This document shows, piece after piece, positions 35,161-44,320 of a DNA stretch of 44,320 nucleotides. A program made the position numbers and the translations under genes. The notes below the pieces were generated by a model that saw only the letters and a program-made list of their open reading frames with translations, did not search any database and was not told where the DNA came from. This DNA comes from Spirochaetia bacterium. Lineage in GTDB: Bacteria > Spirochaetota > Leptospiria > Turneriellales > JAOUFE01. The stretch spans positions 1-44,320 of the forward strand of contig JAOUFE010000003.1 in NCBI GenBank assembly GCA_029858425.1, given 5' to 3'. Every line of letters begins with the position of its first letter. The stretch's first letter is position 1.

Positions 35161-37665
35161 TTAAAATAATGACCTGATATCCGATTCCTCATTACCTTCT
35201 TCAATAAAATAGAATTCTACAGAGTCACTTACATTACCAAAAGGTAAAGCAGGTTGATCGTATGTTTTGGTCTTCTTTTGCTTCTTCTGATTTGTCATCA
35301 AATCAAAGACTTGCTTTTTATAAATTGAATCAGCATTTCCTTGAAGATGTTCACCCTTACTTTCCAATACATACACAAGTTCAACTTTACCATTCTCTTT
35401 TTTTGCAGCAACAAAATCAGGACGAATTTTATTTTCTCGCCAACCCTGAATTGAATACCACTCTTTGCCGGTTTTATTTCGAAACCACCAGAGTATTTTT
35501 GACTGTTTGTCGAGAATATCGCCCACTTTCTTTTCAAGGCTATTCATTCCAGAAATTTCTACATCCTGAAACAAATAAAATTTATAAGGGTTTGGCAGGT
35601 TATCTATGTTTATATCATCGAATTCTGGAACTCGCCAACCTGAATCAGTATCCGTAGCAACTGCAAGAACAAGTTTACCCGTATCTATTAATGAAGAAAA
35701 CGCTTTTTCCTCCTGGATACGTTGTTCTTTTTCAAGTTCCTGAAAAAGCATAGAGGTAATAAAACCAAAATGGTCTTTTAATACATCCGGTCCTAATGCT
35801 TTTTTAAGATTTTCTATATGTGACGTTGCAATCGCCCGGGCAAGAAATGGATTTTCAGAAATCTCCGTGTACCGACGAGTCATATATTCAATATTAATAG
35901 AATCTTTACCGTTTGAAAGTTTCCCTTCAATATAAAAATCCATTTTTTTATCTTCTGAAATCGTGACAGCATAAACGGTACGATCTTTGGTTTCGTTGCT
36001 TAATGATTTTTTAATTATTTCGACAAACCCCGCATCGAGTTTAAATTGGCCGGGATTTAGCAATGGTTTAATATCGTTGGAAAATGAAAATCGACGTTTG
36101 GAGTTATTCTCATCGACCATGACCCATGCGGGCAGATAAAAAGAGTTTTCAAATTGATGAAAATCTTTGCGAATATTTACCCTTTTGGTTTTGGTTTCTG
36201 GCGCATCACCGCCTATGACAATTTTACCTATGAGATCTTCCAAACCTTCATTTTGAAAACCCGAGGCGACCTTTTCAAGCATGGGGCGTGTGTCGCCTTT
36301 TGAAAAATATACATAACTTTCATCCAGTTCTTTTATGCCGGTTTTTTTTGCGTCGGGCTGTCTGAGAATTCGCCCAATGAGCTGGGTAATTCCCGTGTCG
36401 GAATTTACATTGGGTATGATACCGAGAATATAAGCATAAGAACAATCCCAACCTTCGCGCAATGCTTCTTTTGTAATCAAATACCGAATCGGGCAATCCG
36501 AAGAAAATAAATTCACATCTTCAATGTCATTTTGAGAGCTGGTTTTGATGGCAACTTCATCGGGATTACATTTTAGCTCAACAAGAAAATCTTTAACATC
36601 CAGACTATGTACCCTTCCTTTACCTCGTTGATCTTTACCTGTGGCTTCAACCTGTATCAACGCCATTGGGCGAATATAAATTCCTTTATCGCTTTGAAGT
36701 TTTCGGGCATGTTTTTCGAGCTTATCGCGGTGTTTCTTTATTTCACGAATCATGCTTTGCCAATCAGATTGTTCGGCCTGCCGGGGCGGTATAATGTGCA
36801 TATCGAGTTTTACCATTTCTTCTTGCTTTAATTCAAGGCCAGTTATGGTAACAAGAATGTTCATGTTGTCTTTTGGCGTTGCGGATAAACCAAGAACAAA
36901 CTCCGGGTTAAGACTATCGATAGCAGAACGAGCTTGATCGGTAAATACTTTATGAATTTCATCAATGATGATAAACGGACGAGAAACCCGAATTGCATTG
37001 GCAAGGCTTGTGCGTATTATGGAGCCAAACTCGGTGAGTAAATCCAGATTAGGAAATTGCTCGATTAATTTTGCATGTAGATCGCCTCGGTGATCGGCTG
37101 GAAAAAAATTTTCATAACCGCCTGAGTCTTGAAATACTTTTAATGCTTCTTTTCCATTTTTTCGACTCACAGACTGAATCATCACAAACAAAATAACCAG
37201 ATTATTTTCGATATCGTGGGCAGAGAGACGTTGACCTTTTTCGAGAATAACCGTTTTGCCAGCGGAAGATTGGTCAATGAGTTGGCGAAGAGGGTTGGCT
37301 TTATCGCGAATTTTGGCAACCGTTTGAGAGTAGATAATCTCTGATGGAACAACCCAGACCACAAGGCCGGTGCGTTTTTGGGCAAAGCGTTCCTGGTATT
37401 CACGTATGGCTTCGACAGCAAGCAGCGTTTTACCGCCGCCGGTTGGTACTTTAAAAATAACCCTTGGATAATACCAACCCAGACCATTTACGGGATTATC
37501 TTTAATCGCAAGTTTTTTCTGGCGATAAAGCTCTTGAATCCAGTTATGATTGATATTTAAAGTTTCTTTGGCCTGTAGAGCCTTGGCATGTTCTTTTTTA
37601 CCTTCGGTAAGAAATTCTTTAAGAGTATTGACTACCTTTAACTGATATTCCTTGAGATACATCAA
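35161..37665 (-). CDS. Type III restriction endonuclease subunit Res (SF2 helicase plus PD-(D/E)XK nuclease)
   Basis: FKVPTGGGKTLLAVEAI (Walker A), IIDEIHKVF (DEIH), LGLSATP, QLIGRILRQP; C-terminal RPDFVAAKKENGKVELVYVLESKGEHL. Confidence 0.9.
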   Translation of the reverse strand: MMYLKEYQLKVVNTLKEFLTEGKKEHAKALQAKETLNINHNWIQELYRQKKLAIKDNPVNGLGWYYPRVIFKVPTGGGKTLLAVEAIREYQERFAQKRTGLVVWVVPSEIIYSQTVAKIRDKANPLRQLIDQSSAGKTVILEKGQRLSAHDIENNLVILFVMIQSVSRKNGKEALKVFQDSGGYENFFPADHRGDLHAKLIEQFPNLDLLTEFGSIIRTSLANAIRVSRPFIIIDEIHKVFTDQARSAIDSLNPEFVLGLSATPKDNMNILVTITGLELKQEEMVKLDMHIIPPRQAEQSDWQSMIREIKKHRDKLEKHARKLQSDKGIYIRPMALIQVEATGKDQRGKGRVHSLDVKDFLVELKCNPDEVAIKTSSQNDIEDVNLFSSDCPIRYLITKEALREGWDCSYAYILGIIPNVNSDTGITQLIGRILRQPDAKKTGIKELDESYVYFSKGDTRPMLEKVASGFQNEGLEDLIGKIVIGGDAPETKTKRVNIRKDFHQFENSFYLPAWVMVDENNSKRRFSFSNDIKPLLNPGQFKLDAGFVEIIKKSLSNETKDRTVYAVTISEDKKMDFYIEGKLSNGKDSINIEYMTRRYTEISENPFLARAIATSHIENLKKALGPDVLKDHFGFITSMLFQELEKEQRIQEEKAFSSLIDTGKLVLAVATDTDSGWRVPEFDDINIDNLPNPYKFYLFQDVEISGMNSLEKKVGDILDKQSKILWWFRNKTGKEWYSIQGWRENKIRPDFVAAKKENGKVELVYVLESKGEHLQGNADSIYKKQVFDLMTNQKKQKKTKTYDQPALPFGNVSDSVEFYFIEEGNEESDIRSLF

Positions 37666-38039
37666 AGCTCCCTGTATTTATCAAAAACCGAATCAGTATA
37701 AAGAAACTCTAAATTCTCGACAATACTTTGTGCAAAGATCAATCTGTCAAAAGGGTCGCGATGGTAAAATGGCAGATTTGACTGTTTAAGTATGTGGCTT
37801 TCATCAATCGATAAAATCAGAAAATTATATTTCCACCGAATTTCGTCAAGAAAGACTTCGAGCGGGCAAGGAATTTTAAGTTTGCCCAGAGATTGTTTGA
37901 TGGCAATCTCCCACAGTGTTGCCATACTTACATATATAATTGATTTTTCATCTAAAAGCAGTTCCCTTATACGAATAGGGATTTGTTCGTTTCCTTCGGC
38001 AAACCATAAAAGCAAGTTTGTATCGATTAGATACTTCAT
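37662..38039 (-). CDS. PIN-domain toxin (VapC family, Sll0205-like subgroup)
   Basis: MKYLIDTNLLLWFAEGN, MATLWEIAIKQSLGKL, YHRDPFDRLIFAQSI, YTDSVFDKY; acidic residues intact; 4-bp overlaps with antitoxin and res. Confidence 0.93.
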   Translation of the reverse strand: MKYLIDTNLLLWFAEGNEQIPIRIRELLLDEKSIIYVSMATLWEIAIKQSLGKLKIPCPLEVFLDEIRWKYNFLILSIDESHILKQSNLPFYHRDPFDRLIFAQSIVENLEFLYTDSVFDKYREL

Positions 38040-38263
38040 TCCATATACTCCCGGAAATCTTCAAGAGGTTCATTAAAATCGGGAGATATCCAAATTTTGC
38101 CTGCGTATTTTCCATAATATTCTTTCCGGCTGGCTTTATTCTCATTTCCTTTTTCGAACGGAATTATGATGACTTCTAGCTTTTCCTCATCTGAAAATTC
38201 CTCCGGAAGTTCTATGGTTATGTGGTGGTTTTCTGGTTTTACTATTTTTCTAAGGGCCTTCAT
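38036..38263 (-). CDS. Antitoxin (DUF2281-like)
   Basis: C-terminal KYAGKIWISPDFNEPLEDFREYME; ATGA overlap with downstream PIN toxin. Confidence 0.85.
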   Translation of the reverse strand: MKALRKIVKPENHHITIELPEEFSDEEKLEVIIIPFEKGNENKASRKEYYGKYAGKIWISPDFNEPLEDFREYME

Positions 38264-38266
38264 AAA

Positions 38267-39883
38267 TTACTTTCCTGTTTTTGCAAACATTCCATACGGA
38301 ATATTTACATATTCTATTTGATTGGCTTCGAGATAATCTTCATCGAGAAAACATGCCGGGGCATAAACAATGAGCCGCTCGTTTGGATTTGCAGCGCGTA
38401 TCTTTTCAGCCAGGGTTAAATTTAAGGCAAGTCTTGTCATTTCTGTAAAATCGGGTTTGTACACCAGGTAAATGGCAGACCTGCCATATCTACCTGCAAA
38501 ATAATGATCTGCATTGATTTCTTTTTCATTTGTATGGTGTTCGCCTGTGCAAAGATAATAAACGTATTTCGCAAATTCTTCATAAAACGGTAAGTCGCCG
38601 GATAAAATATTTTCCGGATCAATAGCCCTGCCGACTCGAAGATACCGAAAACCAGAATCATAACCATTTTTTTCAATAGCGCGCTTTACCCTTTCACGAG
38701 TGATGTCGCGACAAATATTTTTCTCCGGTTCAGCGGCAGAAGCTTCGGTCATTTGAACCATGATACACTTGCGATTACCACCGTCTTCTTTGTTGAGTTC
38801 CATTACCGCGTGCATCGTTGTACCGGAACCAGCGAAAGAGTCGAGAATGATTGAATCGGGGGAAGTCGAGATTTGGAGAATACGTTTGATTAGACTTGTT
38901 GGTTTTGGAGATTCAAATGGGTTAGCTTCCAATAATTCTTTTACTGTACGCTTAGCATCGTCATTACTACCCACTTCATCATAGAGCCAAATAGACTTGG
39001 GGACTAACTCCTGTTTTACTTCGGATAAAAATGTTTTTCTTGAAGGTGTCGCATTACCATCTTTGCCAAACCAGATTTCATTGTTGGCATCCATTTTTTT
39101 TAAAGTTTCTTCACTAAATCTTGGGTAAGTACCTTTGGGTGGAGACCAGGCCACGCCATTAATAAATTTAAAATGGAAGTCAATTTTGTTGCCGCTTTTT
39201 GCATGTAAAGGCGTAGCTTTCCATGGTCCGCGCAAATCACTATCTGGATTTTTATATGCATCGTTTTGTTTATCGCCGCGAGGAAGTCCGTTTAATTCAA
39301 ATATTTCTTTTTGCTTTGCAAATAGTAAAATAAAATCATGATTTCCACTAAAAAATTCAGCATCGTTGCTTTGTGTATATTTTTTTTGCCAGACAATATT
39401 TGTAATAAAATTATTTTCGCCAAATACCTCATCCATGATTTGTCGCAATGTATGTTGCTCATTATCGTCAATGCTAATGAATATTGCTCCATCATCAGCC
39501 AACAATTCCCTCAACAACTTCAACCTCGGAACCATCATACACAGCCATTTGTCATGACGGGTTAAATCTTCTTTGCCAACTTCTTTATATAGCCACTCCT
39601 TAATCAAGGGACTGTTTACATTATCATTGTAAACCCAACCTTTTCCGTTGCCATTATCATTGCCCGTGTTATACGGCGGATCAATATAAATACATTTAAT
39701 TTTCCCGGCATATTGTGGGAGTAAAGCTTTCAACGCTAAAAGATTGTCGCCTTCTATAATGAGATTATCTGCGCCTTTTTCTGCTTGAAAATGAAGTTTT
39801 TTATCTTCTTCGAGTGTATGATAAGGAATGGATAAATGATGATTCCAGATTACGGTTTTACCTTTAAATTGAAGTGTGGGCAT
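38267..39883 (-). CDS. Type III adenine-specific DNA methyltransferase subunit Mod
   Basis: IYIDPPYNTGNDNGNG (motif IV), ILDSFAGSGTTMHAVMELN (motif I), NLIIEGDNLLALKAL; ATG at 39883 has SD AAAGGA. Confidence 0.93.
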   Translation of the reverse strand: MPTLQFKGKTVIWNHHLSIPYHTLEEDKKLHFQAEKGADNLIIEGDNLLALKALLPQYAGKIKCIYIDPPYNTGNDNGNGKGWVYNDNVNSPLIKEWLYKEVGKEDLTRHDKWLCMMVPRLKLLRELLADDGAIFISIDDNEQHTLRQIMDEVFGENNFITNIVWQKKYTQSNDAEFFSGNHDFILLFAKQKEIFELNGLPRGDKQNDAYKNPDSDLRGPWKATPLHAKSGNKIDFHFKFINGVAWSPPKGTYPRFSEETLKKMDANNEIWFGKDGNATPSRKTFLSEVKQELVPKSIWLYDEVGSNDDAKRTVKELLEANPFESPKPTSLIKRILQISTSPDSIILDSFAGSGTTMHAVMELNKEDGGNRKCIMVQMTEASAAEPEKNICRDITRERVKRAIEKNGYDSGFRYLRVGRAIDPENILSGDLPFYEEFAKYVYYLCTGEHHTNEKEINADHYFAGRYGRSAIYLVYKPDFTEMTRLALNLTLAEKIRAANPNERLIVYAPACFLDEDYLEANQIEYVNIPYGMFAKTGK

Positions 39884-39960: not shown

Positions 39961-41544
39961 GTAACTTCTCAATAATCAGGATATATATACAAAACGACGC
40001 AGGAAATATTAATGTCCTATTTAAGACATGGAATTCAAATTATCAGATATTCCGGAGAACGAAAAAACTCCCCTGGTTTGTTTCTTATTGGAGATGATCC
40101 AGCAACTGACAGAAGAAGTTCGGCAGCTCAAAGACGAAGTCGCCCGATTAAAGGGGCATCCCGCCAGACCCAGCTTAAAACCAAGTACCACGATTGACAT
40201 TGATAAACTGGAAAGACAAAAAACCAGCGGCGGTTCGAAAAAAAAACTTCAAGAAGAAAACGAAGAAAAATCTTGTAATACATAATATAGAAAACGTTGA
40301 GCTGACCGTTATTCCCGAGGGTTCTGTGGCGATTTGCAGCGAATCCATCAAGGTTCAGGATATCCTGATTCGCCCCAATAATACGCGGTATACTCGCAAG
40401 GTCTGGAAAACTCCGGATGGAAAATTAATCAGAGCCAAGTGGCCTGTACATATTAACGGTCAATTTGGGTTTCATTTGAAGAGCTACATTATTTCGTTGT
40501 ACTTTGATTCCCACATGACGCAGCCTGCCATTTTACGCCACTTAACCGAAATTGGAATTGATATTTCATCGGGAGAAATTCACAATATTCTAATCGAAAA
40601 TAAGGATTTATTTCATAAGGAAAAAGAAGATATTTTAAAAGTCGGCTTGCAGATTTCAAAATCCATCACAACCGATGATACCGGCTTGCGTCATCGCGGC
40701 GCAAATGGATATTGTACGCACATCGGAAATGAATTCTTCGCCTACTTTAAAAGTTCCAACAGCAAAAGCCGGATAAATTTTCTGGAAATACCCTTAGAGT
40801 TTTGTCTGCTTCCAGGGGCAGAGATTTCAAAAATAAATCGGAATGGGAAAAGTATCTAAAAATTCTGGGCATACGCGACGAGTACTCTGCCAAAAAAGCT
40901 ACGGAAGGCGCTTTATTGGGCGTGATCATGAAAAAAATACAACCGGCTCTGGCGATTGTAAGCGATGATGCCGGTCAGTTTGATATTTTAAGACATGCTC
41001 TGTGTTGGGTTCATTCAGAACGCTGCATTACATCGATTCACGCCGTTAGCTACGATCAGGATCAAATAATAAAAGATATCCTTGAAAAATACTGGGAATT
41101 AGTTCGAAAACTTCATGAATACAAAAGAACTCCAATAGACAGAATACGCAAAGAGATTGTGGTGGATTTTGATCATCTTTTTAGCATAAAAACAGAAATG
41201 CCTTCGCTAAACAAAGCGCTGGCGTCTCTTTTCAAAAAGAAACAAGAATTATTGTTGGTACTTGAAGAGCCTGAAATTCCACTGACGAACAATATTAGCG
41301 AAAGGGATATTCGGGACCAGGCAAAAAAGAGAAAAATTTCAGCGGGAACCAGAAGCGAATCGGGCAGAAATGCCCGCGATACATTCATGACCCTGCAAAA
41401 GACCTGTAAAAAACTGGGGATTTCCTTCCACGATTATTTGCTCGACAGACTTTCCGGCGCTCATCTGATAGCTGACCTGACAAAATTAATGAAAACCAAA
41501 GCTGGAACAATTTACAAAGCCTTACCTGATTATTGAGAAGTTAC
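39961..41544 (+). mobile_element. IS66-like insertion sequence, decayed
   Basis: Perfect 20-bp terminal inverted repeats GTAACTTCTCAATAATCAGG (39961-39980) / CCTGATTATTGAGAAGTTAC (41525-41544); no convincing target duplication. Confidence 0.8.
40028..41536 (+). pseudogene. IS66-like transposase split across frames
   Basis: Three overlapping ORFs (40028-40285, 40194-40859, 40802-41536) form one protein: coiled-coil N-terminus (QQLTEEVRQLKDEVARLKG), TTDDTGLRHRGANGYCTHIGNEFFAYF, LTNNISERDIRDQAKKRKISAGTRSESG. Confidence 0.8.
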
Positions 41545-43147: not shown

Positions 43148-43171
43148 AAATAGAAATATATGAGGTGTAAT

Positions 43172-44320
43172 ATGAAATATTTTAAAGAATTGCTGATAAT
43201 CTCTGTGCTTTTAATTTTTTCTTCATGCAAGGCATCCTATTTATATGATTTGGTGAATGGAAAAAATACAATCACAAATACAGGCGCCATTGCAAGTACA
43301 AGTACAACAAGTACAAGTACAACAAGTACACAATCACCCATCTCTGCATTTGCATATGTGGCGAACAATGGCAATAACAACGTTTCGATGTATGCGATCG
43401 ACGCTGCCACGGGCGTACTTACCGCAAACGGAACCATTGCGGCCGGGACAGGTCCAATTTCTGTAACGGTAGACCCCACCGGACGATTTGCATTTGTGGC
43501 GAACTCTGGCGGCAACAACGTGTCCATGTACACCATCAACCCTGCCACGGGCGTACTTACCGCAAACGGAGCCATTGCGGCCGGAACAGGGCCAATGTCT
43601 GTAACGGTAGACCCAACCGGGCGATTTGCATTTACGGCAAACTCCACCACTAACGATGTGTCCATGTACACAGTAAACCCTGTCACGGGCGTACTTGCCG
43701 CAAACGGGATGGCCATCCCGGCAGGGACACAGCCAATGTCTGTAACGGTAGACCCAACCGGAAGATTTGCATTTGTGGCGAACTATGTCAGTAACAACGT
43801 GTCCATGTACACCATCAACCCGGCCACGGGCGTACTTGCCGCAAGCGGGACAGTCGCGGCCGGGACAGCTCCAATTTCTGTAACGGTAGACCCAACCGGA
43901 CGATTTGCGTTTGTGGCAAACGGCGCCAGCTCCAACGTGTCGATGTATACGATAAACTCAGCCACGGGAGCGCTTACCGCAAACGGAACCATCGCAGCAG
44001 GGACAACTTCACGTTCTGTGACAATCGACCCAACCGGACGATTTGCATTTGTGGCAAACACCGCCAGTAACGACGTGTCGATGTACACGATCAACACATC
44101 GACGGGCGCGCTTACCGCAAACGGTACCATCGCAACAGGAGCAAGTCCATTATCTGTGACGGTAGACTCAACCGGACGATTTGCATTTGTGGCAAACGCT
44201 GGCAGCGCCAACGTTTCGATGTACACGATCAACTCGACCACGGGCGTACTTACCGCAAACGGCAGCAGCGCGGCCGGGACAAACCCGGCTTTTGTAACGG
44301 TAGTGCGCAGCAAACCGCGC
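43172..44320 (+). CDS. Lactonase/YVTN-type beta-propeller lipoprotein (3' end outside window)
   Basis: Open for 383 codons to the window end and absent from the ORF track. Signal peptide with lipobox-like IFSSC; repeats FAFVAN..NNVSMYTINPATGVLTANGTIAAGTGP.SVTVDPTGR. Confidence 0.88.
   Translation, partial: MKYFKELLIISVLLIFSSCKASYLYDLVNGKNTITNTGAIASTSTTSTSTTSTQSPISAFAYVANNGNNNVSMYAIDAATGVLTANGTIAAGTGPISVTVDPTGRFAFVANSGGNNVSMYTINPATGVLTANGAIAAGTGPMSVTVDPTGRFAFTANSTTNDVSMYTVNPVTGVLAANGMAIPAGTQPMSVTVDPTGRFAFVANYVSNNVSMYTINPATGVLAASGTVAAGTAPISVTVDPTGRFAFVANGASSNVSMYTINSATGALTANGTIAAGTTSRSVTIDPTGRFAFVANTASNDVSMYTINTSTGALTANGTIATGASPLSVTVDSTGRFAFVANAGSANVSMYTINSTTGVLTANGSSAAGTNPAFVTVVRSKPR
43295..43330 (+). 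repeat. 15-bp in-frame tandem repeat (Ser/Thr linker)
   Basis: AGTACAAGTACAACA x2 plus partial third; encodes STSTT repeats. Confidence 0.75.
43347..44300 (+). repeat. 138-bp coding tandem repeats (one unit 141 bp), about 7 copies
   Basis: GATTTGCATTTGTGGC-type landmark at 43485, 43623, 43764, 43902, 44040, 44178: spacing 138, 141, 138, 138, 138. Confidence 0.9.

Follow-up and report, generated by a model that had tools for sequence, protein, structure and literature searches.

The minus strand of the window, a 44,320-nt stretch of contig JAOUFE010000003.1 (C84) from the genome of a Spirochaetia bacterium (2.65 Mb in 220 contigs), carries from position 39883 to 35161 a Type III restriction-modification operon in which a VapBC-type toxin-antitoxin pair is embedded between mod and res. 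Probably, the operon is intact and its mod-res junction, where small cargo genes land repeatedly, captured the VapBC pair, which would be expected to act by addiction and, secondarily, to have an abortive effect. The arrangement is not a composite system that has been conserved, and it is not an isolated accident either. In order, the operon includes mod, the gene for a VapB-like antitoxin, the gene for a VapC-like PIN toxin and res, with spacing near zero, as follows.

38267..39883, minus strand: mod, Type III DNA adenine methyltransferase subunit, 538 aa, with DPPY (residues 68-71) and FAGSGT (350-355)
38264..38289, minus strand: mod-antitoxin junction, with a 3-nt gap (38264-38266) and an SD-like AGGAAAG within the final mod codons
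38036..38263, minus strand: vapB-like antitoxin gene, 75 aa, with a DUF2281-type C-terminal part and a distinct N-terminal part (MKALRKIVKPENHHITIELPEEF)
37662..38039, minus strand: vapC-like PIN-domain toxin gene, 125 aa, with acidic D6, E44, D95 and D116 invariant among relatives
37655..37680, minus strand: toxin-res junction, with a TGATG stop-start overlap and an SD-like AGGGAG within the final toxin codons
35161..37662, minus strand: res, Type III restriction subunit, 833 aa, with Walker A GGGKT, DEIH, motif VI and PD-(D/E)XK

The sequence and its open reading frames bear out what the first-pass annotation gave as gene order, as strand and as outer limits (35161-39883), and also its placement of the antitoxin SD in the last codons of mod, where AGGAAAG is present. 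The tight translational spacing that it described is real, and two of its three spacings stand, namely the 3-nt gap after mod and the 4-nt overlap (ATGA) of the antitoxin and toxin genes. The third, a 4-nt overlap of the toxin gene and res, needs TTG at 37665 as the res start, but the start kept in relatives is the ATG at 37662 (M-x-L-K), which gives a 1-nt overlap with the toxin gene. A terminator scan found no terminator-like site on the operon strand inside the junctions, and a weak one directly past res. The promoter scan returned 8 sites versus 14.9 in shuffled sequence and, being below the shuffled level, is uninformative on internal promoters. The VapBC pair would be co-expressed with the rest of the operon. 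A 4.7-kb run in which four ORFs abut and have specific homology, and which recurs in a second phylum (see below), is not due to chance; the observed mod-VapBC-res arrangement is confirmed as real.

Beyond the operon, an IS66-type transposase gene, split over overlapping frames and probably broken, adjoins mod at 40028-41536 of the window. A beta-propeller-like repeat protein (FAFVANxxxNNVSMYTINPATG repeats) is encoded at 43160-44320 and runs off the contig end.

The catalytic motifs are intact in all three enzymes, Mod, the PIN toxin and Res. Mod matched the PADLOC model MTase_III with 529 bits, is homologous to EcoP15I Mod (4zcf_A, E 9e-48) and includes the N6-adenine methyltransferase motifs of Type III Mod subunits. 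Res matched REase_III of PADLOC with 426 bits and EcoP15I Res (4zcf_C) in a profile comparison (E 6e-12), and has the SF2 helicase motifs and C-terminal PD-(D/E)XK nuclease of Type III Res. In an alignment with relatives, the intact nuclease residues D749, E767 and K769 are invariant, as are Walker A, DE.H and motif VI. Thus, both subunits resemble those of EcoP1I/EcoP15I in being homologous to the EcoP15I proteins, although the window Res is shorter, at 833 aa versus 970. To our knowledge, no genes lie between mod and res in EcoP1I/EcoP15I.

The toxin matched PF01850 (PIN) with 50.3 bits (cut-off 23.6) and has the PIN domain and conserved acidic residues of a VapBC toxin. Its AlphaFold model has a pLDDT of 94.6, and the top PDB fold matches are mostly VapBC complexes; PDB sequence searches with VapC gave no match, so these come from the fold search alone. 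For the antitoxin, family matches cover the C-terminal half only and lie under the curated cut-offs (NF050009 TA_VapB, 43.6 bits, cut-off 60; PF10047 DUF2281, 20.8 bits, cut-off 26.5), and the structure model has a low pLDDT of 39.7, two points that count against the preferred reading. A homologue in a Candidatus Brocadiaceae genome clears the DUF2281 cut-off with 27.6 bits, and the antitoxin gene is small, directly upstream of the toxin gene and overlaps it, as in VapBC. The pair is like type II VapBC modules in its small antitoxin gene overlapping that of a PIN toxin, its intact acidic residues and its VapC fold. It differs in lying inside another operon, with no promoter of its own recognised in the scan that fell below the shuffled level. 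Searched against the PADLOC models at E 0.01, VapB and VapC of the window had no match, and hence neither matches a phage-defence candidate catalogued there.

Relatives of Res were found in 18 of 393 genomes of the same phylum, the window genome included, and the three closest outside the window genome belong to plain mod-res operons. The sister Res operons (L010/L050, L011 and L012) are plain, and a sister and a same-class genome are among the plain relatives. In the sister species G115, purB adjoins a folP-like gene and the restriction operon is absent, so that the window operon looks like an acquired island. A wider set was formed from the best 80 of 522 confirmed Res relatives in a collection of ~85,000 species genomes, with mod upstream of res in 72 of the 80. 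Only one of these 72, locus L036 from Ca. Brocadiaceae (Planctomycetota), has the order mod-VapB-VapC-res, with VapB and VapC 44% and 47% identical to those of the window. Among the Res relatives listed, two such loci, the window and L036, were thus found in total. Wider Res searches covered 392 genomes of the L036 phylum and 396 of the L038 phylum and identified no further mod-VapBC-res locus. On plasmids, 54 Res relatives were found, all at most 60% identical, and at listing level none of them had VapBC as a neighbour. Viral contigs included 19 Res and 20 VapC relatives, with mod-VapBC-res in none. In the phylum of L036, a further locus (L149:1498-3513) has mod beside a 217-aa C-terminal Res fragment only, in matching frame.

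The Res tree groups the window with the plain operon L050 (100/100) and L036 with L035 (100/99), and well-supported branches force at least two changes between presence and absence of VapBC. Given that the window and L036 lie on separate branches among plain operons, two acquisitions are favoured over one origin followed by many losses, and parsimony on the tree favours VapBC having been captured twice, separately. The operons of L036 and L035 are close, with res 89% and the 3' end of mod 85% identical in DNA, and homology breaks exactly from the mod stop to the res ATG, where L036 has VapBC and L035 a 136-bp repeat-like insert. The G+C content of vapBC in L036 is 35.7% versus 44% for mod and res; no such difference is present in the window (36-37% versus 38%). 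Within mod itself (L036:5348-5821, L035:1400-1966), the two are ~85% identical at both ends with an unalignable middle, which fits an exchanged target recognition domain.

Thus, the VapBC genes lie between core genes, on the same strand, and recur in independent operons, as represented by the window and L036. The first-pass annotation had reasoned that a chance insertion would be indicated if the order occurred only here and relatives were plain. Relatives are indeed mostly plain, but the order does not occur only here, as L036 has it on a separate Res branch. Since close relatives are plain, the composite does not form a lineage that has been conserved, and since the same order is found in Ca. 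Brocadiaceae, it is not unique.

A same-strand gene was found at the mod-res junction in 19 of the 72 relatives with both genes (from the best 80 of 522). This is about a quarter, and the junction is therefore a recurrent cargo site. The cargo includes DinD/Bro-N, ORF6N, AlbA_2, a GxxExxY nuclease (PDDEXK_3), MNT-HEPN, an HD/HATPase protein, SEC-C proteins, HTH-ImmA/IrrE with a DUF4411 PIN protein, DUF1016, NYN and one unnamed 116-aa family. Bacteroidales-type operons that are closely similar to one another differ here, with DinD, GxxExxY or no gene at the junction. Of the gene-bearing inserts, 19 of 20 lie on the operon strand, though these loci are related and not independent. Several cargo families match the PADLOC phage-defence candidates PDC-S13, PDC-S05 and PDC-S02. 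Repeated uptake of small defence or toxin genes at the junction is probably why the arrangement arose separately in an unrelated phylum.

Among the individual junctions, those of four Bacteroidota loci (L067:6651-7001, L069:6651-7001, L096:3820-4167 and L219:1151-1501) encode a conserved 115-116-aa protein (EPIPYFYESINRNAIVV...), the gene for which abuts or overlaps res. The L067 copy had no Pfam match, and the protein is a candidate accessory subunit. HTH-ImmA/IrrE and DUF4411 PIN genes lie directly upstream of res at L098:5315-6990 and L100:3-1578, with the families assigned by Pfam for L098 and by sequence likeness for L100, where the start of the contig cuts off the mod side. A Neomarinimicrobiota operon (L062:5795-6545) has an MNT nucleotidyltransferase and HEPN pair at the junction.

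The option that the pair is a passenger in the mod-res junction, raised in the first-pass annotation, is thus the best supported, given the plain relatives, the position of L036 on a separate branch and the recurrent cargo. The four genes would probably form one transcript, and VapB would bind and silence VapC. If the antitoxin supply stopped, through loss of the operon or phage shut-off of host expression, VapC would be freed to cleave RNA and arrest the cell. The predicted outcome is stabilisation of the operon by addiction, with an abortive effect as a secondary back-up for restriction. As judged from the protein families, VapBC would probably act as an ordinary addiction or abortive module. 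The observations behind this reading are the gene identities, the intact active-site residues, the seamless junctions, the occurrence in a second phylum on a separate Res branch, the sister operons without VapBC and the other cargo at the same junction, from which we infer co-transcription, activity, addiction and defence.

The window and L036 VapC proteins fall in one subclade (100/99) alongside those of spirochaete pairs outside restriction operons, and the N-terminal type of their antitoxins is shared with one other pair, L168. A toxin family specific to restriction-modification was ruled out, as the VapC subclade includes stand-alone pairs. In L168 (853-1855), from the same order as the window, VapBC follows a 5-hydroxyisourate hydrolase-like gene at 1 nt and precedes a malate synthase gene at 9 nt, these names having been read from the sequence. 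This pair is equally tight in a urate/glyoxylate operon. Hence, VapBC of the window kind can settle in metabolic operons too, the embedding is not restriction-specific, and the spacing is no evidence of a restriction-specific link. The L168 pair and the stand-alone members of the subclade are consistent with VapBC being a neutral, selfish passenger that settles in any operon, uses it as an expression site and adds nothing to restriction. However, several of the junction cargo families are catalogued defence candidates (PDC-S13, PDC-S05 and PDC-S02) rather than random genes, and the inserts keep the operon strand, so that strict neutrality appears rather unlikely.

Wiring of VapBC to Mod and Res, such that the pair guards the restriction enzyme, is improbable. 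There is a precedent in PrrC, the gene for which, encoding a toxic RNase, lies within a restriction operon (PMC3710099, PMC12707154). PrrC resembles the window toxin in this respect, but works with no separate antitoxin, being kept in check by the Type IC enzyme EcoprrI, whereas the window includes a dedicated antitoxin. By analogy, inhibition or loss of Mod/Res would free the toxin and infection would be aborted. A block of operon expression would also free VapC, because vapB and res would be translated off the ends of mod and vapC, respectively. The operon would then combine restriction, addiction and abortive infection, assembled more than once. Seamless embedding on two separate Res branches agrees with such a role, as does other toxin-like cargo at the same junction, e.g. 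MNT-HEPN (L062) and HTH-ImmA with DUF4411 PIN (L098, L100). Against it, VapC has its own antitoxin and so needs no Mod/Res inhibitor, most relatives do without VapBC, and the related L168 pair is as tightly placed in a metabolic operon. Finally, that mod-VapBC-res is one old composite, spread between phyla and stripped of VapBC in most descendants, would account for the shared VapC subclade and the same full-length antitoxin architecture, but is improbable given that the Res proteins of the window and L036 are each sister to VapBC-free operons with starred support, that the G+C content of the L036 vapBC is unlike that of its mod and res, and that the VapC subclade also holds stand-alone pairs.

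Capture of VapBC at the mod-res junction, the preferred reading, has a parallel in DarTG2, which in EPEC separates hsdS from hsdR within a Type I operon, is experimentally supported and, as its authors suggest, occupies an insertion site that is a recombination hotspot for defence genes (PMC12255303). Both are complete toxin-antitoxin pairs inside a restriction-modification operon. The DarTG2 locus differs in being of Type I and not Type III, in its DNA ADP-ribosyl toxin in place of a PIN RNase, in the RptR repressor and in having been tested with phage. The guilt-by-embedding phage-defence candidates of Payne et al. (2024 preprint, as cited in PMC12255303 and PMC12988326), among them PDC-M05 (MNT-HEPN) and PDC-S70 (PIN nuclease) (PMC12988326), are likewise small genes inside immune operons, and several of the junction cargo families match PDC models; in contrast, VapB and VapC of the window do not. 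Makarova et al. (2012) noted that loci of Types I and III include toxin-like domains, with antitoxins generally lacking (PMC3506569). The literature searched, preprints being outside its scope, gave no account of a toxin-antitoxin pair lying in a mod-res junction.

Embedding of one defence system in another is already known, and VapBC in a Type III mod-res operon extends it: toxin-antitoxin embedding in restriction operons, shown for Type I, now includes Type III. The 2012 view that typical antitoxins do not seem to be encoded in immune loci (PMC3506569) is thereby qualified. As a cargo site, the mod-res junction can be searched for new defence or toxin genes, and L036 and L035, close operons with and without the pair, are natural material on whether embedded pairs help the host operon.
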